From Catalinimonas alkaloidigena (GTDB lineage: Bacteria; Bacteroidota; Bacteroidia; Cytophagales; Flexibacteraceae), in contig NZ_FNFO01000002.1 of NCBI RefSeq assembly GCF_900100765.1, positions 62,001-126,000 of the forward strand: a stretch of DNA of 64,000 bases. The letters are read 5' to 3'. A program made the translations under genes and the position numbers. Below, piece by piece: positions 40,351-51,417 of the stretch (its first letter is position 1; every line of letters begins with the position of its first letter). The notes under the pieces are model-generated. The model was not told the DNA's origin. It was given only the letters and a program-made list of their open reading frames with translations, and did no database searches.

Positions 40351-40362
40351 TGGTCTCACAAC
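40344..40362. other. Hairpin covering both stop codons of a convergent pair
   Basis: GTTGTGA (40344-40350) and TCACAAC (40356-40362) form a perfect seven-pair stem around TGGTC. The stop codons of the GNAT gene (plus) and arsC (minus) lie in the two arms. No T run, so it is at best a weak bidirectional attenuator. Confidence 0.4.
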
Positions 40363-40769
40363 CGCTCTTCTGCAAACGTTTTTGCGTAAGTGCGGATCTG
40401 GTTGCGCACGTCTACGAACACCGCGTGGACCTCTTCTTCGGAGCCTTGTGCCTTGGCCGGATCAGGAAAATTGTGGTGGAACTGCCGGGCACGTGTAGGA
40501 AAAACGGGACAGCGTTCTTTCGCATGGTCGCAGACCGTAATCACAACATCAAAAGCTACGTCGGCGTACTCATCCACGTGGTTGGAGGTGTGTCCGGAAA
40601 TATCGATGCCGTCTTCGGCCATCACCTGGATTGCCTTGGGGTTCACGCCGTGCGTCTCGACGCCCGCACTGTACACGGCCGCCCGGTCGCCCGCAAAGTG
40701 GCGCAGGTAGCCTTCCATCAACTGACTGCGGCAGGAATTGCCGGTGCAGAGCACTAAGATTTTTTTCAT
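40356..40769 (-). CDS. arsC: Arsenate reductase, thioredoxin-linked LMW-PTPase type
   Basis: A 137-residue cytosolic enzyme reducing As(V) to As(III). The P-loop CTGNSCRS gives the nucleophile Cys8, with Cys13; the relay cysteines are Cys80 and Cys87 (VCDHAKERCPVF). The spacing 8-80-87 is the same as 10-82-89 of S. aureus pI258 ArsC, indicating thioredoxin-coupled recycling. The DPAKAQGSEEE segment and length are normal. It is the last gene of the minus-strand arsR-arsM-arsC unit, 51 bases after arsM. No arsenite pump (ArsB/Acr3) is present in the window, so arsenite may instead be methylated by ArsM. Confidence 0.95.
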   Translation of the reverse strand: MKKILVLCTGNSCRSQLMEGYLRHFAGDRAAVYSAGVETHGVNPKAIQVMAEDGIDISGHTSNHVDEYADVAFDVVITVCDHAKERCPVFPTRARQFHHNFPDPAKAQGSEEEVHAVFVDVRNQIRTYAKTFAEERL

Positions 40770-40820
40770 AACGTCAGGGAAGGCCTCCGACCCTTGGACC
40801 GGCCGGAGGTAAAGTCGAGG

Positions 40821-41669
40821 TTAGTTGCAACAATCGGGACCACAGCAGCTTTTCGCTTCGGCGGGGCGCTCGGCGTAGACCGTCACGCTGTAGATGCCGA
40901 GGTCGGACTGGCGGTAGTGGGCCAGTTCTTCGTCGGAAAGGTAATTTTTTAACAGTTCGTCGGGCAGAACAATCTCCCGGTCTTTCTGGACCTGAATGTT
41001 CGTGAATCCTACTTTTTCGATCAGGCCCAGGTACGCGTCTTTGTCGATGGCTCCCGTAACGCACCCCGCATACAGTTCGGCTTCGCGTTGCAGCCCGTCG
41101 GGCAGATCGCCTTTCAGTACTACGTCTGAGATGCTGAAGTGACCTCCTGGTTTCAGGATGCGGAACGTTTCGGCGAAGGCCTTCTCCTTGTCGGGCACCA
41201 GGTTCATCACGCAGTTACTCACCACCACGTCGGCCGTCTGGTCGGGGAGGGGCATCGCTTCGATTTCGCCCAGCACAAATTCCACGTTCGTGAAGCCGAG
41301 TTTCGCGGCGTTGGCCTGCGCCTTGGCAATCATGGGTTCGGTCATGTCGAGGCCGATCACCCGTCCGGTTTCGCCCACTACCGAGCGGGCAATGAAGCAG
41401 TCGTTTCCGGCCCCGGAACCGAGGTCGACCACCGTCTGGCCGGGCTGGAGCTTGGCGTATTCGGTAGGCAGGCCGCAGCCGAGTTTCAGGTCGGCGTCGG
41501 GGTTGTAGCCCGCCAATTGCGTGTAATCTTCCGCGAAAACGGTGTAATCGGACGGGGCCTCTTCCGGACCACACCCGCAGGCGGGGCCACAGCAACGGTC
41601 AGTGGTTTGTTCCGCGATTTTTCCGTACTTCTCGCGGACGAGTTGGCGCAGGGCTTCTTGATTTTCCAT
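40821..41669 (-). CDS. arsM: Arsenite methyltransferase
   Basis: A 282-residue SAM-dependent methyltransferase. The SAM loop is VVDLGSGAGNDCFIA, and the three arsenite-binding cysteines are Cys65 (KLGCGLP), Cys153 (SNCVMNLVPD) and Cys203 (YAGCVTGAID); the last two are 50 apart, as in algal ArsM. Extra thiols occur at both ends: RCCGPACGCG (residues 25-34) and a C-terminal SCCGPDCCN. The product converts As(III) to methylated, partly volatile species. A ten-base palindrome 19-28 bases before its start repeats the arsR operator, so arsM seems to have its own ArsR-controlled promoter inside the unit. Confidence 0.95.
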   Translation of the reverse strand: MENQEALRQLVREKYGKIAEQTTDRCCGPACGCGPEEAPSDYTVFAEDYTQLAGYNPDADLKLGCGLPTEYAKLQPGQTVVDLGSGAGNDCFIARSVVGETGRVIGLDMTEPMIAKAQANAAKLGFTNVEFVLGEIEAMPLPDQTADVVVSNCVMNLVPDKEKAFAETFRILKPGGHFSISDVVLKGDLPDGLQREAELYAGCVTGAIDKDAYLGLIEKVGFTNIQVQKDREIVLPDELLKNYLSDEELAHYRQSDLGIYSVTVYAERPAEAKSCCGPDCCN

Positions 41670-41687
41670 GATATTGATCGTTAAAAT

Positions 41688-41697
41688 GTAATATTAC
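41688..41697 (-). promoter_or_regulatory. ArsR operator upstream of arsM
   Basis: GTAATATTAC is a perfect palindrome 19-28 bases before the arsM start. The minus-strand context ATCGTAATATT is identical to that in front of arsR, which marks it as a second binding site of the same repressor. Confidence 0.65.
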
Positions 41698-41775
41698 GAT
41701 GTACTGGGCTGTAAGTTTGGGCGGTGACGATTTGTGCGGGCTAATCAGCGTGAGGGTATCCGATCCGGTTTTCCG

Positions 41776-42102
41776 TTAGCAACACGTGGTGGTGGCGAAC
41801 GAGCCGAAAAGCTGGTTGAGCATGGCCTGGGCGGCGGACCAGTTTTCTTCGTGAATGCAGTAGCAGATTTTGGGGCCTTCCACTTCGCCTTTGATCAAGC
41901 CGATGCGCTTGAGTTCCTTCAGGTGCTGCGAAATGGTGGACTGCGACAGGGGCAACACGTCGACCAGATCGCCGCAGATGCAGGTCTTCTGGCGGATCAG
42001 TTCCTGCAAGATGGCCACCCGGGCCGGATGGGCCAGGGCCTTGGCGTATTCCGCAATCTGGTTCTGCTGTGCGTTAAAGACTTCCGATTTCGTAATGCCC
42101 AT
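41776..42102 (-). CDS. arsR: ArsR-family arsenic-responsive repressor
   Basis: A 108-residue winged-helix repressor (ALAHPARVAILQELI, then LSQSTISQHLKELKRIGLIKG as the recognition helix, seen as SQSTISQHLKELKRIG). The metal site differs from E. coli ELCVCDL: here it is KTCICGDLV with Cys41 and Cys43. Further cysteine pairs are Cys80/Cys82 (ICYC) and a terminal Cys107/Cys108. This resembles ArsR subclasses that bind As(III) through alternative cysteines. It starts the minus-strand ars unit; an 18-base dyad sits 11-28 bases before its start, so the gene is autoregulated. Confidence 0.93.
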   Translation of the reverse strand: MGITKSEVFNAQQNQIAEYAKALAHPARVAILQELIRQKTCICGDLVDVLPLSQSTISQHLKELKRIGLIKGEVEGPKICYCIHEENWSAAQAMLNQLFGSFATTTCC

Positions 42103-43503: not shown

Positions 43504-44862
43504 ATGCGCCTTTTTGCCAGCCCCCTGCACTACCGTTGGATCGGCACGTCGCTCCTGCTGTGGCTTTTGGGGCAAACGGTGTGTGCGCAAATGGCCCTGT
43601 CGCGGCAGGACAGTTTCCAGGTCGCTCAGTCCGAAGCGCAGGCGGCCCGGTACCGCGGCCTCGGCGATTTTCGGGAAGCTTCTCACCACTTTAACGACAT
43701 CGCGATGATCTACTGGAAGCACAGCCAGTACCAGCGCGCCATCGACTATTACCTGCAATCGCTGTCGCTCAATGCCCAACTCAACAACGAAAACGGCATG
43801 GCGATGATCAACAGCAACCTGGGCATGTTGTATGCCGACGTGCAGCAATACGAAAAAGCAGAGGAGCACTTTAAGCGTACGCTGGAAGCACGTAAAGCGG
43901 CGGGCGAACGCATCGGGCAGATTTCGGCGCTCTACAACCTGGGCGTGGTGCTGAACCGGCTGGCGCGCTACGACGAGGCCATCGCACGGCTGGAAGAAGC
44001 ACTGACGCTCGCCAAGGAATTGAGCAGCCCCGAAGAGATCCGCAGTTGTTACGGCATGCTGGCCGAAACGTATTCGAATGCGGGCAATGCCGAAAAGTCG
44101 CTCCAGTATTTTAACCTCTACCGCAGTTTCCACGAGTTGGTGCAGCGCGACAAAGAAGAAGAGCAACAGCGCGAAGTGGAAGCCGCCAAGCTGCGCGCCG
44201 CACTGGCCGAAAAAGAAGAGCAGCTCAAAAAGTTTCAGTTGCAGCAAACCGAAGAAGCCCTGGCCACCACCGGCGCGGCCCTGCTGGAGACCGACTCGGT
44301 CAACCTGGATCTGCTGAAGGGCCTGAAGGGGCGCGAACTGGAGATTGCTTACCTGGAAAAAGCGCAGAAAATCAACAACCTGGAGCGGGCAATGGCCTCG
44401 CAGGAGCTGATGCTGCTGAGCACCCAACTGAAACAGGACCGGATGCTGTTGTGGGGCGTGGCGATTCTGGCACTGGTGGTGCTGGTCTACTCGTTTTTTC
44501 TGTTCCGGGCCCACCGGCGCGTAACGGCTCAGAACAAACTGTTGCAGGCACAGCAAGCGGAAATCGAGGCGCAAGCCCGGCGCATTCGGGAAATCAACGA
44601 GGGGCTGGAGATCAAGGTTCAGGAACGGACCGCCGAACTGGAGCGCCGCAACGAACAGCTCTCGGAGCATCTTTACCTCAATTCACATAAACTACGTGCG
44701 CCGCTGGCCCGCATGCTGGGGCTGGTGCAACTGTTGCAGGCCACCGCCCTGAACAAGGAAGAACAGCGGCAGGTAGTAAAAAGCATTGGTTTTACGGCCC
44801 GCGAGCTGGATTCGGTCACGCACGAGATCAATACCAATCTGGCCAATAACTTCTCTTCATGA
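43504..44862 (+). CDS. TPR sensor with histidine-kinase dimerisation domain but no ATPase domain
   Basis: A 452-residue protein from ATG 43504. Signal peptide (to about residue 28, ending TVCAQ), then periplasmic TPRs (about 40-235; for example SNLGMLYADVQQYEKAEEHF, AEEHF, and YNLGVVLNRLARYDEAIARL), a coiled coil (about 240-310), one transmembrane helix (314-333), a cytosolic coiled coil, and a HisKA-like DHp segment LNSHKLRAPLARMLGLVQLL with candidate phospho-accepting His395. Only 57 residues follow, ending ELDSVTHEINTNL; there are no N, G1 or G2 boxes of a HATPase_c domain. A frameshift is unlikely, since the stop is joined (ATGA) to the next start. Phosphate would have to come from another kinase. 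Confidence 0.85.
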   Translation: MRLFASPLHYRWIGTSLLLWLLGQTVCAQMALSRQDSFQVAQSEAQAARYRGLGDFREASHHFNDIAMIYWKHSQYQRAIDYYLQSLSLNAQLNNENGMAMINSNLGMLYADVQQYEKAEEHFKRTLEARKAAGERIGQISALYNLGVVLNRLARYDEAIARLEEALTLAKELSSPEEIRSCYGMLAETYSNAGNAEKSLQYFNLYRSFHELVQRDKEEEQQREVEAAKLRAALAEKEEQLKKFQLQQTEEALATTGAALLETDSVNLDLLKGLKGRELEIAYLEKAQKINNLERAMASQELMLLSTQLKQDRMLLWGVAILALVVLVYSFFLFRAHRRVTAQNKLLQAQQAEIEAQARRIREINEGLEIKVQERTAELERRNEQLSEHLYLNSHKLRAPLARMLGLVQLLQATALNKEEQRQVVKSIGFTARELDSVTHEINTNLANNFSS

Positions 44863-46604
44863 CACCACGCTACTGCTGTCCCGCCTTTTCTTCCGCAACG
44901 TCTTTCCTGCACTACGCCGGCTTCTTGTGGAGCGGATTTTTGCTGTGCACTCTGGGGTGGGCGCAAACGCCCGCCGCGCCTACGGCCCGCACCTACGTCG
45001 ATAGCGCCGGGCGCTATTTTCAGCAGGCGGCCTTGCCAGTGTACCTGTTTGTGGCCGCCACCCCGGACGGCCGTAACGCCACACCTCTGGCACAGAACAA
45101 CGGCGGTGTCGAGCCGATGTACCTGGACGGGCACGGCAAACACCTGATTCGGCACCACGACGCCGACCATCAGGAATACGTCGCCTTCGAAATTTATGCC
45201 GACGGCTACGCCCCTCAGACCAACGCTTCTTTTTCGGGCGCGCCCACGCACCGCTCGGGGCAGAGGGTTTACTACGGCCCCGGGCTTTCGATAGCGCTGG
45301 CTACGACCGACGAAATGTCGGGGGTGCAGGCCACCTATTTCTCGATGGACGGTAAGGGGTACCAGCCGTACCAAACGGCCTTGGCAACGTTTGCGGAGGG
45401 AGCGCATGCGTACACCTATTACGCTACCGATCGCGTAGGAAATCAGGAAGCCCCACACACCGCGAATTTTACCGTTGATCTGTCTGCGCCCCGTACGTTC
45501 CACAACATCACCGGCTTTTCGGCGGATAGCATAATCTCGTCGGCTTCGAAGATTTACCTCACCAGCGAAGACAACCTGGCGGGCATCGCTGCCACCTACT
45601 ACCGGCTCGACAGCCTGCCCTGGAAGCGCTACGACGGACAGGGCGTGCCGTTCACTTTTCTGGAAGATGGCCCGCACCGCCTGACCTACTATTCGGAAGA
45701 TCAGGTCGCTAATCGGGAAACTGTGAAGTCGGTTTCGTTTTACTATGACAAGACCGCACCCATCATCGCCTCCGACGTGCTGGGCGACCGCTTTGTCGCC
45801 AACGGGCAGGTCTATTTTTCCGGGCGTACGAAACTGAAACTGACTGCCGTAGACAACAAGTCAGGCATTAAGGAAGTGAAGTATTCGATCGACAACGCCC
45901 CGTTCACCGACTATGAGGAGCCGTTTTACCTGCCCAACCGGCCCGGCCTGCACGAGATCCGATTTTATGCGCTCGACAACGCCCAGAACGAAGGCGGCAG
46001 TGGCCGGCGCGACGACCCCTACGCCCGCTTTAAGCTGAACGTCAGCCGCGTGTACGTGGACCTGACCGGGCCCAAGCTCACCCATCAGTTTCGTGGAAAA
46101 TCGATCAGCATCGGAAAAACAACCTTCATCGGGCCGACGACCGACGTGGTGCTGACCGCTTCGGACGACGAGTCGGGGCTGCAATACATCGCCTATGCGC
46201 AGGACCAGCAGCCCGGCGAAACGCGGTACGAGCAACCGTTCCAGGTCACGCAGCACGGGCCGCACCAACTGGCGCTGTTCGGCTACGACAACGTCAACAA
46301 CCGCAACCGAAGCGAACTCGACTTCACAGTCGATGCCCATGCGCCGGAAATCTCCGTGAGCTACAGCATTGGGGCCGTGGCCGAGAACCAGTATCCCGCA
46401 CTGGTGTCGGTTTTTCTGGCCGCGACCGATCAGGATACGGGCATCGACAAAGTCTTCTACCGACTCAACGGTGGCAGCGAAAGAACGTACGCAGGGCCGC
46501 TCAGCGGCTTCAAACCCGGCCAGACCTACACGCTCACCATCCGGGCTGTCGACCGGGTCGGAAACGAGGCCACGAAAGAAGTCAGCTTCGCGACGGCGGA
46601 GTGA
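44859..46604 (+). CDS. Secreted Ig-like (OmpL47-type) repeat protein
   Basis: A 581-residue exported protein; signal peptide to about residue 36 (LCTLGWAQ). The rest is a string of about five Ig-like modules of the OmpL47/Big-type pattern: each has L-x-A-x-D-x-x-SG-(I/V)-x-x-x-x-Y/F-x-(I/M)-D and ends in YYATDRVGNQE, YYSEDQVANRE, FYALDNAQNEGG, FGYDNVNNRN or RAVDRVGNEA. Such modules occur in surface-anchored binding proteins. There is no T9SS sorting tail or lipobox. It overlaps the TPR half-kinase by ATGA, so the two are made together. The plausible job is an extracellular ligand-binding partner for that sensor. Its stop abuts the stop of the convergent efflux gene (TGA-TCA). Confidence 0.82.
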   Translation: MTPRYCCPAFSSATSFLHYAGFLWSGFLLCTLGWAQTPAAPTARTYVDSAGRYFQQAALPVYLFVAATPDGRNATPLAQNNGGVEPMYLDGHGKHLIRHHDADHQEYVAFEIYADGYAPQTNASFSGAPTHRSGQRVYYGPGLSIALATTDEMSGVQATYFSMDGKGYQPYQTALATFAEGAHAYTYYATDRVGNQEAPHTANFTVDLSAPRTFHNITGFSADSIISSASKIYLTSEDNLAGIAATYYRLDSLPWKRYDGQGVPFTFLEDGPHRLTYYSEDQVANRETVKSVSFYYDKTAPIIASDVLGDRFVANGQVYFSGRTKLKLTAVDNKSGIKEVKYSIDNAPFTDYEEPFYLPNRPGLHEIRFYALDNAQNEGGSGRRDDPYARFKLNVSRVYVDLTGPKLTHQFRGKSISIGKTTFIGPTTDVVLTASDDESGLQYIAYAQDQQPGETRYEQPFQVTQHGPHQLALFGYDNVNNRNRSELDFTVDAHAPEISVSYSIGAVAENQYPALVSVFLAATDQDTGIDKVFYRLNGGSERTYAGPLSGFKPGQTYTLTIRAVDRVGNEATKEVSFATAE

Positions 46605-48200
46605 TCAGTGTGCGTTCATCGCCTCGCGCGAAACGGCCCCTTTGGGTTTGTCCTGCCGCAGAATGAGGACGAACGGCACGCAGACCACGAAGAAAATCCC
46701 GATGCCCAGAAACACGTCCATGTACGACAGCAACGCGGCCTGCCGGGTGATGGAAAGGTCCATCAGCTTCTGCGCCTGTTGCAGGGCCTGATCGGCCGTA
46801 AATCCCTGCGTCCGGAAATTTTGCGCCATCATTTGCAGGCGTTGCGTCACCTCCCAGTCGTACGGCGAAAGTTTGGGCAGCAGGTCGACCCGGTGCTGTT
46901 GGTTCTGGTGGTTGATGTACGTGCTGATCAGTGCCACGCCGAACGAACCGCCGAGCTGCCGCATCATCCCCGTGAACGCCGCGCCCTGCCCGATCTCCTT
47001 ACCGTGCAGCGTAGACAGCGACAGGGTCGAGGTCGGCACGAACAAGAAGCCCAGCCCGAACCCGCGTACCATCAGGGGCCAGAACAGGTCGTCGCTCGAC
47101 GTGGAGGGCATGATCAACTGATACGCCCACAGGCTGTAGAGGAAGAAGATGGAAAAGCCCAGCGCAATCAGGTACTTCTGCGACACGCCGCGTTGGATGA
47201 TCTGGCCGACCACCGGCATCATAAAGCCCGTCGCCAACGAACTCGGAATGAGTAACATGCCCGATTGCAGGGCGGTCCAACCCAGCGAACTCTGCGTGAA
47301 AATCGGGATGACGAACGTGGAGCCGAACAGTCCGAAGCCCAGCACGAACGAGAGCACCGAGCCAATGGCCAGGTTGCGGTTTTTCAGTACCCGCAGTTCC
47401 ACCACCGGATTGGGCGTGACCAGCTCGCGCCAGACGAAACAGTAAATGCCCAGGAACGCCAGCACGGCGAACAGAATGATAAGACCACTGTCAAACCAGT
47501 CTTCTTCTTGCCCGCGCTCCAGAATGAACTGCAACGACCCGACGGCCACGATCAGGAAGAAAATGCCCAGCCAGTCGACTTCCGAGGCTTTGCGCTTGCC
47601 GCCGTAGTGCGGACTGCGGATGTAGGTCAGCGTGAGCAGCGTTGCGATGATGCCCACCGGTACGTTCACGTAGAAGATGTAGGGCCAGGCGTAGTGGTCG
47701 ATCAGGTAGCCGCCCAGCGGCGGACCGAGTGTCGGGCCGACGATCACGCCCAGCCCGTAGATGGCCTGCGCCATGCCCCGTTTTTCGGGCGGATAGGCTT
47801 CCGTGATGATCGTCTGCGAGGTGACCAGCAGTGCACCGCCACCCAGACCCTGAATGAACCGGAACGCGACCAGTTCCCAGATGTTGGTGGCGTTGCCGCA
47901 CAGGAACGACGCCACCGTAAACAGCACAATGGAGGCGGCGAAGTAGTACCGCCGGCCGAACTGCTGCGACAGCCAGCTCGTGAGCGGCACGATGATGACG
48001 TTCGCAATGGCGTAGGCCGTGATGACCCAGTTCACATCGGTCAGCGTGGCGCCCAGGTTGCCGCGCATGTCGGTCAGGGCCACGTTGACGATGGTCGTAT
48101 CGATGATCTCCAACAGCGCACAGGTAATGGCGGTGATCGTGACGATCACCCGCCGGAACCCGTACTCCACCGTGGAGGGGGGCGAAAGGGTAGCTTGCAT
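46605..48200 (-). CDS. DHA2-family MFS drug exporter (EmrB-like)
   Basis: A 531-residue, 14-helix major facilitator of the DrugH+ antiporter-2 family. Motifs seen: LLEIIDTTIVNVALTDM (motif D1 of helix 1), WVITAYAIANVIIVPL, FRFIQGLGGGALL (motif B), and GPTLGPPLGGYLI (motif C). It is the inner-membrane pump of a tripartite system: HlyD adaptor and TolC channel genes lie directly upstream on the same strand. The substrates are probably hydrophobic drugs or toxic metabolites, as for EmrB; the natural compound cannot be predicted. Confidence 0.93.
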   Translation of the reverse strand: MQATLSPPSTVEYGFRRVIVTITAITCALLEIIDTTIVNVALTDMRGNLGATLTDVNWVITAYAIANVIIVPLTSWLSQQFGRRYYFAASIVLFTVASFLCGNATNIWELVAFRFIQGLGGGALLVTSQTIITEAYPPEKRGMAQAIYGLGVIVGPTLGPPLGGYLIDHYAWPYIFYVNVPVGIIATLLTLTYIRSPHYGGKRKASEVDWLGIFFLIVAVGSLQFILERGQEEDWFDSGLIILFAVLAFLGIYCFVWRELVTPNPVVELRVLKNRNLAIGSVLSFVLGFGLFGSTFVIPIFTQSSLGWTALQSGMLLIPSSLATGFMMPVVGQIIQRGVSQKYLIALGFSIFFLYSLWAYQLIMPSTSSDDLFWPLMVRGFGLGFLFVPTSTLSLSTLHGKEIGQGAAFTGMMRQLGGSFGVALISTYINHQNQQHRVDLLPKLSPYDWEVTQRLQMMAQNFRTQGFTADQALQQAQKLMDLSITRQAALLSYMDVFLGIGIFFVVCVPFVLILRQDKPKGAVSREAMNAH

Positions 48201-48291
48201 GGTATCGCATTACCATGTACAGATCGACCCACGTGCTGACAGGCAGCGCTAGGGCACGCTGTACATGGTTGTTTTAAATCTGCAATGGAGG

Positions 48292-49422
48292 TTAGTTCAG
48301 GTGTACGTCCGCTTCCACGTTCATGCCCGCACGAAGCAGCTGCATCTTCTCGGTGGTATCGGTCAGGACGATTTTGACCGGCACCCGCTGCACGATCTTC
48401 ACGAAGTTGCCGGTCGCGTTGTCGGGCGGCAGCAGGGAAAACTTCGCGCCCGTCGCGGGCGAGAACGACTCCACTTTGCCGTGAAACTCCTCGCCGGGGA
48501 AGGCATCCACTTCGATGCTTACTTCCTGTCCGGGCCGCACGTTTTCCAGTTGCGTCTCTTTGAAATTGGCGACGACCCATTTTTCATTGTCGGCCACCAG
48601 CGCGAAGGCCGTTTGCCCGGCCTGCATCAGTTGACCTACCTGTACGTTGCGCCGCGATACCGTGCCATCTTCCGGAGCGGTAATCCAGCAGTAGCTGTGT
48701 TGCAGCTTGGCCAGGTCCAGTTCGGCTTTCCGCTGCTCCACGACCGACTGCGCGACCGAAATGCGCCGTTCGGCGGCGGTTACCTCAGTGCCGGCGGCGA
48801 CAGTCTGGCTTTTGGTCGCATTGTACTGCTGCTCCAGCCGTTCCAGGTTTTTGGCGGCGGCTTGTTGCGTGGCCTGAATTTGTTCGAACTCCCGTTGGGT
48901 GACCGAGTGGTCTTTGATCAGGTTCTGGTACCGTTGCAGGTCCTGCGTGGCGCGGTTGTAATCGACGCGGGCGGCCGCCAGGGCGGCATCGGCGGCGGCG
49001 ACGTTGGCGCGCACGGTTTGCAGGTTGGCGGTCGCCGAAGGCACGCCCGACTGGCTCACGTCGAGGCTGGCCAGCGCATTGTCGTACGCCGCCTGTGCGT
49101 TCATCACACGAATCGAGGTTTCACGGTCGTCGAGCACCACCAGCGTATCGCCTTTGTGGACGTACTGGTTATCGTCCACGCGTAGCTCTTTTACGTAGCC
49201 CGACGTGCGGGCAATGACCGGACTGATGTTGGCTTCGATCTGCGCATCGTCGGTCGTTTCGTGGTGCAGGCCGTGCACATAACGGTAAATACCGAATACG
49301 GCGCCCAGCGCCACCAGGACGCCCAGGATGATGCCGAAATACGGTTTCTTTTTGCGCCCTTTCTCCTCAGTAGCCGGGGCGGTTTTGTTGGCAGTTGTGT
49401 TGGATTGAACGGTCGTTTCCAT
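48292..49422 (-). CDS. HlyD/EmrA-family membrane fusion protein
   Basis: A 376-residue periplasmic adaptor. A cytosolic N-terminus and one membrane helix (about residues 30-48, IILGVLVALGAVFGIYRYV) lead to the biotinyl-lipoyl half motif SPVIARTSGYVKELRVDDN, seen as GYVKELRVDDNQYVHKGD. A long alpha-hairpin coiled coil (about 100-210), the second lipoyl half WITAPEDGTVSRRNVQVGQLM (seen as APEDGTVSRRNVQVGQ), and a beta-barrel domain (NFKETQLENVRPGQEVSIEVD, seen as ENVRPGQEVSIEVD) follow. It bridges the EmrB-type pump and the TolC-type channel. It begins 23 bases after the TolC gene. Confidence 0.93.
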   Translation of the reverse strand: METTVQSNTTANKTAPATEEKGRKKKPYFGIILGVLVALGAVFGIYRYVHGLHHETTDDAQIEANISPVIARTSGYVKELRVDDNQYVHKGDTLVVLDDRETSIRVMNAQAAYDNALASLDVSQSGVPSATANLQTVRANVAAADAALAAARVDYNRATQDLQRYQNLIKDHSVTQREFEQIQATQQAAAKNLERLEQQYNATKSQTVAAGTEVTAAERRISVAQSVVEQRKAELDLAKLQHSYCWITAPEDGTVSRRNVQVGQLMQAGQTAFALVADNEKWVVANFKETQLENVRPGQEVSIEVDAFPGEEFHGKVESFSPATGAKFSLLPPDNATGNFVKIVQRVPVKIVLTDTTEKMQLLRAGMNVEADVHLN

Positions 49423-49445
49423 TCGAGTCTCTAGTTCAAAAAGGG

Positions 49446-50807
49446 TTAGTAGTTCAGATTGCCGCTGGCTTTTTGCAGCGTATAGTAGGCCACAGCCGCC
49501 TCGGCGCGGGCACTGGCCAGGTTAATTTGCGTTTGCAGGAGGGTGACGTCGGCTTCGAGCAGATCGGTCAGCAGCACCAGACTGTTGTCGTACTTGTTTT
49601 TGGTGATGCGGTAGTTTTCCTGTGCCTGCGTAATGGCCTTCTGGCTGATGCGAATCTTTTCCAGACTCTGCTGGTAGTCGAGGAAAGCCTGGTTGATTTC
49701 GGATTTGACCTGATCAGAAAGGGCTTCGTAGGCCCACCGGGCTTCGGCTTGTTGGGCCTGCGCTTCCTGAATTTTGTGCCGCGAAAACAACGCCCCGCTC
49801 AGACTATAGTTCAATCCGACGCCCACGTTCACCACGTTGGTGAGGGCGATCAGATTCGGAATGTCGGCGTTGACGTACGCGCCGGTCAGGGCCAGCGACG
49901 GATAGCGGTCGCCTTTGGCAGCCCGCACGCCATACGCGCCCGACTGCGTGCGCATCTCGGCGGCTTTCAGGTCGTCGCGCTGCGATAGGCCATTGGCAAA
50001 CAGGCCGTCGAGCGTGACGCTTTCCTGGGGGAAAAACAGGGCTGTTGTATCAAGCGCCAGGGGCTGCGTTTCCGGCAGTCCCAGCAGCAGATTCAGGTTG
50101 TAGTTGGCTACCTTCAGGTTGTTGTCCACGCCCGACAGCGTCAATTGCACCTGGGCTTCCTGCAATTCGGCACGCAGCAGATCGTTGCGGGCGATGACGC
50201 CATTCGCCTCCAGCCCGGTAAAGTCAACCACCCGTTGGTGCGCCTGTTCCAGGTTGTTCTGCACCAGCGTGCGCGTCTGTTGCAGCGTATAATATTGGTA
50301 GAGCGCCTGCAGCACCTGCAGGCTCACCTCGTCGCGCGTGGCCGATGCCTGAAAGGCCGCCGCTTTTTCCAGAAACTCGGTCGAGGTAATGGCATTGCGG
50401 ATTTTGCCGCCGGTAAACAGGGGCTGTGAAGCCTGCACCTGTGCGAGCATCAGGCTGTGTACGTTGCTGAAACTCAGCCCCGCCAGCGGCGAACTCCCGC
50501 CTTCCTGTCCGGCTGGAGGGGCCGTTTTCAGGGAGACATGCGGTTGCGTCAGGTACAGGTACGTGCCGCTCAGCCCTACGTCCGGCAGCGCTTTTTCGCG
50601 CGCCTGTTCGGTTCGCGCCTTGGCGGCTTCGGCCCGGCTTTCGGCCATTTTTAGCGTTTTGCTGTGGGCCAGGCCCAACTGCACGGCACGTTCGGGCGTA
50701 AGCGGCCCCTGCCAGGAAAGCGTATCCAACGGCTGTGCTCCCACCAGGAAGACAGGCAGCATCAGCATCCCGGCCAGCGAGATGCGGAATCGGTTCAGAA
50801 GAAACAT
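49446..50807 (-). CDS. TolC-family outer-membrane efflux protein
   Basis: A 453-residue outer-membrane channel. Signal peptide to about residue 25 (ending FLVGAQ). Two OEP repeats follow, each with long helices and short beta strands (LTPERAVQLGLAHSKTLKMAE at the start of the first, FANGLSQRDDLKAAEMRTQSG in the second, seen as GLSQRDDLKAAE). The DSLVLLTDLLEADVTLLQTQI region closes the second hairpin. The trimer forms the outer-membrane tunnel of the efflux pump encoded downstream. It begins 4 bases after the tetR gene. Confidence 0.93.
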   Translation of the reverse strand: MFLLNRFRISLAGMLMLPVFLVGAQPLDTLSWQGPLTPERAVQLGLAHSKTLKMAESRAEAAKARTEQAREKALPDVGLSGTYLYLTQPHVSLKTAPPAGQEGGSSPLAGLSFSNVHSLMLAQVQASQPLFTGGKIRNAITSTEFLEKAAAFQASATRDEVSLQVLQALYQYYTLQQTRTLVQNNLEQAHQRVVDFTGLEANGVIARNDLLRAELQEAQVQLTLSGVDNNLKVANYNLNLLLGLPETQPLALDTTALFFPQESVTLDGLFANGLSQRDDLKAAEMRTQSGAYGVRAAKGDRYPSLALTGAYVNADIPNLIALTNVVNVGVGLNYSLSGALFSRHKIQEAQAQQAEARWAYEALSDQVKSEINQAFLDYQQSLEKIRISQKAITQAQENYRITKNKYDNSLVLLTDLLEADVTLLQTQINLASARAEAAVAYYTLQKASGNLNY

Positions 50808-50811
50808 GGAA

Positions 50812-51417
50812 TTAGAGTAGATACTTTCGTAATACGTTCTGTAAATGTTGAATCAGGCGCTGTTTGAGCATGGCTTCTTCGTCAGCAATCAACGTGTTGG
50901 TCAAGTGACCCATAAAGTTTTCGTTCGACGCCTGATTAATGGTCCCGTACAGCGTGCAGAGCGTCAGCTCCACATCCACCGGCCGGAAATGCCCCTGGTC
51001 AATGCCCTGCCGGATCATGCCCCGCAGCGTTTCCACGTTGCGAAACAGCACGTCCGAAATGCTGCTGTGCAGGGCCGAGCGCTGGCTCATGGACAACTCG
51101 CGGTACATCATGTGGTGGAAGCCCCGGTTGCTGAAGACCTTCTCCACGTAGAACTCCACCACGCGGTCCATCTTTTCGATCGGCGTCAGCCGCTCGTCCT
51201 GCTGGATGTCGTGCAGCCGGAGGCGCGTGTATTCCGCGCGCTGCTGAATCAGCTCTTCGAGCAACTTCTCTTTCGACCCGAAGTAATAATTGATCATGGC
51301 CAGGTTGACCCCGGCTTTTTCGGCGAGCTCTCGTACGGTGGTGGCTTCAAAGCCTTTGTGGCGGAAAAGTTCTTCGGCAGCCACGAGAATGAGCTCCCGC
51401 TTTGTGGTTTCGCTCAT
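50812..51417 (-). CDS. TetR/AcrR-family repressor of the efflux operon
   Basis: A 201-residue regulator with a TetR DNA-binding domain at residues 1-60 ([28 protein letters not shown] region, with core [19 protein letters not shown]) and a divergent C-terminal ligand domain (TetR_C of the AcrR/CmeR type). It is the first gene of the minus-strand unit tetR-tolC-hlyD-emrB. A near-perfect 31-base palindrome 24-54 bases before its start is the probable operator, so the whole pump would be autoregulated and induced by a bound substrate. Confidence 0.92.

Follow-up and report, generated by a model that had tools for sequence, protein, structure and literature searches.

Can a membrane sensor that ends in a phosphoacceptor DHp domain, with no ATPase domain behind it, be part of a working signaling system? 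The question is raised by two overlapping genes at positions 43504 to 46604 of a 64,000-nucleotide stretch of the Catalinimonas alkaloidigena genome (contig NZ_FNFO01000002.1, positions 62,001 to 126,000; here called the window). The upstream gene encodes a TPR sensor of the histidine kinase type, and the downstream gene encodes a predicted secreted OmpL47-type protein built of Ig-like repeats. Our analysis indicated that the pair belongs to a wider receptor module whose outputs can be exchanged, an ATPase-less DHp group being one of them. Judged from their sequences, these ATPase-less DHps apparently form a distinct and unnamed group in Bacteroidota.

The sensor gene (43504 to 44862, plus strand) encodes 452 amino acids (aa). 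Its frame, family scans, hydropathy, and AlphaFold model (mean predicted local distance difference test [pLDDT] 87.9, predicted template modeling score 0.53, from 31 sequences) agree with the layout given in a first-pass annotation: TPRs, one membrane helix, a HisKA-like segment with His395, and an end 57 residues later with no ATPase domain. A signal peptide covers residues 1 to 29 (43504 to 43590; a model helix spans residues 7 to 26, and the end was judged by eye), and it is followed by TPR helices (residues 34 to 192) and a coiled-coil helix (196 to 260), together at 43603 to 44283 and probably periplasmic; TPR_12 of Pfam was matched in three stretches with an E value of 5.7e-32. Besides the signal peptide, hydropathy revealed a single hydrophobic stretch, the membrane helix at residues about 314 to 334 (44443 to 44505), which is also found in the model. 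The DHp core, delimited by families, model, and motif table, runs from NSHKLR to EINTNL (residues 393 to 447; 44680 to 44844) and includes the codon of the presumed phosphoacceptor His395 (44686 to 44688). Residues 394 to 442 match HisKA at 26.2 bits, which is marginal given the Pfam cutoff of 26.9. In the model, an unbroken helix (279 to 412) begins on the periplasmic side, crosses the membrane, and continues as DHp helix 1; after a turn, it is followed by a second helix (418 to 451). Since both DHp helices are present, only the ATPase domain is missing and the DHp hairpin is whole. Structural neighbors of the model retrieved with VIA-align were TPR folds only, such as LGN (Z 23), in a comparison that did not probe the DHp.

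At an E value of ≤1, 18 Pfam families were reported for the sensor, and neither an HATPase family nor the HPt domain (PF01627) was among them; the frame end and the same scan left no remnant of an ATPase (CA) domain on the chain. A frameshift hiding an ATPase domain was also considered and ruled out: the partner ATG (44859) lies inside the sensor stop codon (TGA, 44860 to 44862), and with zero intergenic bases there is therefore no room for such a domain. Thus, the continuation into an HATPase domain that the first-pass annotation had named as speaking against its view is not there. The protein has what defines a DHp-type phosphotransferase, namely, a conserved His in a DHp hairpin and no autokinase domain.

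The partner gene (44859 to 46604, plus strand; 581 aa) starts within an ATGA overlap at 44859 to 44862 and scores 257.8 bits against the NCBIfam OmpL47-type repeat NF047446 (cutoff, 40), which bears out the overlap and the family as first described. It shares this repeat with Leptospira OmpL47 and differs in staying below the corresponding equivalog model NF047441 (153.2 bits; cutoff, 250) and in being modeled as tandem beta-sandwich domains (pLDDT 86.2) rather than a barrel. Bacterial Ig-like domains were found by Pfam, and the top two Foldseek matches were parts of the Aureispira grappling-hook protein GhpA, with receptor and complement chains, cadherins, and the SiiE adhesin among the further matches. 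Because the model is a string of beta-sandwich domains, the word "beta-barrel" in the OmpL47 family title is probably misleading for this protein. The label "extracellular" given to the partner fared less well than the family assignment, since Pfam and NCBIfam scans found no type IX secretion system sorting-domain family at an E value of ≤1. We therefore lean toward a periplasmic partner, which may share the compartment of the sensor TPRs, although the surface exposure of Leptospira OmpL47 (PMC2698987, in the part available) points the other way.

To place the pair among relatives, contigs were scanned with an alignment of 12 OmpL47 homologues, and the best 80 of 104 loci were kept. Loci were found by OmpL47 alone, and a locus was called paired if a sensor of the same TPR family lay within 250 bp of the OmpL47 gene. 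By this definition 56 of the 80 loci are paired; among the 70 loci that have 1.9 kb or more of upstream sequence, the number is 54. Conservation of the pair, on which the first-pass annotation had staked its view, was thus found. The sensor lies upstream of OmpL47 in 48 paired loci and downstream in 8; the upstream sensors are separated from it by a median gap of 21 bp, with 11 abutting or overlapping and 4 sharing the identical 4-base overlap.

Co-inheritance is stronger evidence for the pair than adjacency. Across 59 genomes (that of C. alkaloidigena and 58 relatives), the same 12 carry OmpL47 (E ≤ 2.8e-136) and the TPR sensor (E ≤ 2.2e-73), at thresholds chosen after the gaps in the E values were visible; the Fisher value of 8.9e-13 is valid only if the genomes were independent. 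Weaker matches comprise OmpL47 in G054 (8e-101) and G042 (3.9e-67) and the sensor in G012 (4.5e-26), so that 12 genomes have both genes and 45 to 47 lack both, and no more than three are mixed, all of them weak cases. Both genes are present though far apart in G030 and G045. The window pair is placed in this family by its homologous TPR-to-membrane part and by the OmpL47 gene in the same genome. Another 12 genomes have no sensor next to OmpL47, and 11 of these have one elsewhere (E ≤ 6.9e-58), the last reaching only 5.2e-23. The loci and the genomes are not independent samples, as they overlap (L043 lies in G027 and L042 in G039, for example). In 5 of the 12 genomes, two or three sensors (E ≤ 2.2e-73) accompany a single OmpL47 orthologue, a sign that several receptors can share one OmpL47 protein. 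When OmpL47 was searched for phylum-wide, 5 of 395 genomes matched besides that of C. alkaloidigena (best E values, 4e-127 to 1e-119). These proteins have other N termini, their genomes hold no sensor closer than 2.9e-16, and we treated them as paralogues; absences in the phylum-wide searches are weak, because scoring was limited to 3 candidates per genome in one search and 6 in another.

The outputs of the sensors were then compared in 81 rows (the 80 loci and the window), with classes assigned by profiles built in this analysis. A SpoIIE phosphatase was found in 37 rows, a histidine kinase in 17, and a DHp-only end in 3, leaving 24 with no sensor or an unclassed one. One locus (L089) was counted as a kinase though its ATPase part would lie beyond the contig end, and two (L111 and L113) were left unclassed though each holds a sensor fragment. 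The classes agreed with Pfam for L043, L064, and L273 (SpoIIE) and for L045 and L256 (HATPase_c). The DHp-only sensor adjoins the same OmpL47 partner in two Reichenbachiella genomes (L103 and L121); Marinoscillum is another genus with cultured carriers. Since the pairing recurs in relatives with several signaling ends, it looks more like a genuine receptor module than like a damaged gene. The first-pass annotation had read the pairing of a kinase-dead sensor with an extracellular binder as a two-part surface-sensing device. The pairing itself stands, but it is not peculiar to kinase-dead sensors, as the majority of paired sensors end in a phosphatase or a complete kinase.

Three further loci showed variants of this arrangement. 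An unlinked TPR sensor of the same family (L255, 1 to 2418, minus strand) carries a weak GAF match followed by a class III nucleotidyl cyclase (Guanylate_cyc, 7.5e-54), which adds a fourth output to those of this receptor. In L105 (3265 to 5738), the OmpL47 gene lies directly 3' of a STAS gene and a gene for an RsbW-like ATPase, which stand in place of the TPR sensor; such a STAS/RsbW-like pair would be in keeping with partner switching, the route used by SpoIIE phosphatases. In L113 (8893 to 10833), the TPR sensor by OmpL47 is divided into a frame of 287 aa and a second one of 356 aa that resembles SpoIIE by eye; this may be either a natural split or a sequencing error.

How often the output was exchanged was estimated by parsimony on quick trees, as all trees in this work were. 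Eight output changes were counted on the TPR tree and eight on the OmpL47 tree, with well-supported branches forcing fewer. In a first sensor tree the three DHp-only sensors formed one group (Shimodaira-Hasegawa-like approximate likelihood ratio test [SH-aLRT], 82); this grouping was set aside, the tree having included part of the cytoplasmic region. On a tree of the TPR region alone, the DHp-only sensors need two changes, only one of which is forced by well-supported branches. The OmpL47 tree forces two origins, and a single clade of the window and Reichenbachiella pairs was rejected (approximately unbiased test, p-AU 0.00017), the tested group being named by output but chosen with the tree already known. 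Because these pairs do not form one OmpL47 clade, this receptor probably acquired its DHp-only output on two occasions, provided that the partner tree stands for that of the receptor.

Is the DHp-only ending itself a recurrent protein type? Besides the window sensor, the C. alkaloidigena genome encodes L131, a TPR-containing protein of 531 aa, and L122 (291 aa), both DHp-only and of the same class; L164 is a more distant fourth member. Together with the Reichenbachiella sensors, these proteins speak against a chance ending. We searched 198 Bacteroidota genomes with a profile made from five DHp-only tails, of which C. alkaloidigena supplied three. Among loci L166 to L194 (n = 29), the 13 best were DHp-only, their chains ending 2 to 27 residues past the match; other matches in the same genomes have an ATPase domain (for example, L199 at 80.8 bits). 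Of 126 DHp matches, 13 were left out of the motif table and tree, 12 for scoring under 35 bits and one for unclear class; among them are 10 ATPase-bearing rows, including five kinases from the family paired with OmpL47, as well as two DHp-only rows (L201:2388 and L205:2391). The remaining 113 sequences (34 DHp-only and 79 ATPase-bearing) were compared over 79 columns, and 33 of the 34 DHp-only sequences fell on one branch (SH-aLRT, 96), separate from the ATPase-bearing DHps. This branch takes in the window DHp, away from the complete kinases that its receptor family also contains. The initial view that such endings recur in Bacteroidota was therefore right and can be sharpened to a DHp branch of their own.

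The motifs of this branch are distinctive as well. His, Arg at +3, and Pro at +5 are kept in all 34 DHp-only rows, though for the His this is partly built in, because the rows, which are related, were collected by likeness to five His-bearing tails. An acid, which serves autophosphorylation in kinases, follows the His in 6 of 34 DHp-only rows versus 63 of 79 ATPase-bearing ones, and N or Q stands at His−2 in 25 of 34 versus 0 of 79. HisKA falls below the Pfam cutoff in six further DHp-only proteins that were scanned (L103, L121, L131, L122, L225, and L227) and also in the full kinase L045. In two loci (L201, 1559 to 3311, and L205, 1562 to 3314, both minus strand), a DHp-only gene whose product carries an NAH motif overlaps another DHp-like gene that also lacks an ATPase domain; the acceptor place of the second L201 protein reads TNQQELIYP, without His, so that a His-bearing/His-less pair is possible there.

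Gene order gives a hint of what such proteins do. Eight soluble members have a REC-PAS-DHp architecture (L221, L222, L223, L225, L227, L229, L235, and L239; by Pfam for L225 and L227 and by profile in the others). A stand-alone receiver adjoins all eight and receivers flank five on both sides, and a kinase gene lies upstream in all six of these loci whose gene order was mapped. This is the order expected for a relay of kinase, receiver, phosphotransferase, and receiver, and these eight operons are candidate complete phosphorelays. Receivers on both sides were found for 5 of 40 DHp-only genes versus 0 of 37 ATPase-bearing kinases, in a comparison where control loci had 1.5-kb flanks, test loci had longer ones, and neither set was a random sample.

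We reasoned that the pair is best explained as a two-part envelope receptor with a phosphotransferase end like that of Spo0B and PhyT, gated by the Ig-like partner, a reading that we hold to be somewhat better than even. The OmpL47-type protein would be exported and would engage the periplasmic TPR domain of the sensor, with a conserved TPR helix (residues 181 to 195) and the most conserved OmpL47 repeat (residues 319 to 336) as candidate contact sites. The TPR-membrane part is joined to an ATPase-less DHp here and to a SpoIIE phosphatase, a kinase, or, in one unlinked case, a cyclase in relatives. The DHp would most likely act as a dimeric histidine phosphotransferase like Spo0B, ChpT, and, above all, PhyT. 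The phosphate donor to His395 would be a receiver or a kinase acting in trans, and His395 would pass the phosphate on or drain it depending on the state of the TPR/OmpL47 pair. Arrival of phosphate in trans is plausible, as the His is kept, the ATPase domain is absent, and soluble sister proteins lie beside receivers.

Several observations weigh against this assignment. Same-strand stand-alone receiver neighbors are not enriched overall (10 of 40 DHp-only genes versus 7 of 37 ATPase-bearing kinases), such an association being confined to the REC-PAS-DHp type, and none was seen at the window pair, L103, L121, or L134, so the relay role of the window protein is carried over from the soluble members. 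There is neither a receiver nor an ATPase match within the window. No classed sensor lies nearby in 24 of the 81 census rows, partly from short upstream sequence, and the two weak DHp rows that were dropped are DHp-like and ATPase-less, that of L201 (2388 to 3311) lacking the acceptor His.

Among known systems, the nearest design is PhyT (formerly PhyP) of Sphingomonas melonis, which moves phosphate from SdrG to PhyR via a conserved His (PMC5898713, in the part available). PhyT is likewise described there as membrane bound, with a putative periplasmic sensor and a kinase-like His domain lacking a working ATPase. It differs in its HRxxN DHp and in retaining a degenerate ATPase domain, while the window sensor has no ATPase domain, a TPR input, and a coupled Ig-like partner; by analogy, the latter would be a PhyT-like receptor without the ATPase domain and with the Ig-like partner. 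Spo0B (PMC11210211) and ChpT (PMC3433190), as the available parts of these sources describe them, share the DHp-type hairpin that shuttles phosphate between receivers with no autokinase activity, but both are soluble and have no receptor part, and ChpT retains an ATPase-like fold. Bacteroidota TPR sensor kinases and TPR-SpoIIE proteins, such as Porphyromonas FimS (NF053520), share the order of TPR, membrane helix, and cytoplasmic output and differ in the output; the FimS model matches sensor residues 65 to 348 at 51.5 bits, far under its cutoff of 600.

The strongest alternative, which we consider unlikely, is a pseudokinase subunit that joins a full histidine kinase in a mixed dimer, so that His395 is phosphorylated in trans or the kinase activity is set by the TPR/OmpL47 input. 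DHp domains dimerize, and the genome gave 117 HATPase_c matches, the shortest frames being 66, 134, 146, and 163 aa. None of these matches lies inside the window, nor does any of the 111 receiver matches, and no specific partner, such as the orphan ATPase suggested in the first-pass annotation, could be named from them. Several relatives (G020, G030, G044, G045, and G047, for example) have two or three TPR-family sensors each, and the overlapping genes of L201 and L205 suggest mixed pairs. However, the C. alkaloidigena genome has a single TPR sensor of this family at an E value of ≤1e-25, which leaves no sister kinase sharing its receptor part, and the window DHp sits away from kinase DHps.

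Less probable still is a DHp that drains phosphate or anchors a receiver at the membrane, the regulator being dephosphorylated or held with no onward transfer. Such a role would fit the frequent loss of the acid after the His. T or N at His+4 is usually tied to phosphatase activity; all 34 DHp-only rows have A, G, R, S, or K there instead, and the His itself is kept. In favor of an anchor, PhyT is also described as sequestering its regulator at the membrane (PMC5898713, available part). A decayed kinase that has lost its ATPase domain and is itself being lost is very improbable: the same receptor family does include full kinases with a similar linker and DHp (L045 and L046), but the overlap with the partner gene is clean, the TPR, membrane helix, and DHp are intact, the same kind of ending occurs in Reichenbachiella, and the DHp groups with the DHp-only branch, not with L045-type kinases.

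Extending the phosphotransferase reading to the phylum gives a more tentative picture, which we put at just short of even. Bacteroidota would possess overlooked ATPase-less DHp relays, both soluble ones between two receivers and outputs of membrane receptors; the OmpL47/TPR module would be inherited as a unit and joined to four output chemistries (phosphatase, kinase, cyclase, and relay), with one exported Ig-like protein serving several receptors per cell. Kinase calling by ATPase domain, as in the available part of one census (PMC6365647), passes over such proteins, and Pfam HisKA also stays under its cutoff in those scanned. If DHp-only proteins are indeed relays, phosphate routing in Bacteroidota is wired otherwise than counts of kinases and regulators suggest. 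The titles and abstract openings that we searched, a set without preprints and most subscription journals, held no description of the pair or of a Bacteroidota DHp-only class. The conserved Ig-like partner provides a concrete handle on the input side of the TPR receptor family, and the natural output swaps are ready chimeras for reading receptor input.

Two other gene groups were recognized by eye near the pair, both on the minus strand. An apparent arsenic cluster at 40356 to 42102 comprises frames for a 137-aa low-molecular-weight phosphatase/arsenate-reductase-like protein, a 282-aa methyltransferase, and a 108-aa ArsR-like regulator. Next to the pair, at 46605 to 51417, lies an efflux-like set with a major facilitator superfamily transporter, HlyD-like and TolC-like proteins, and a TetR-like regulator.

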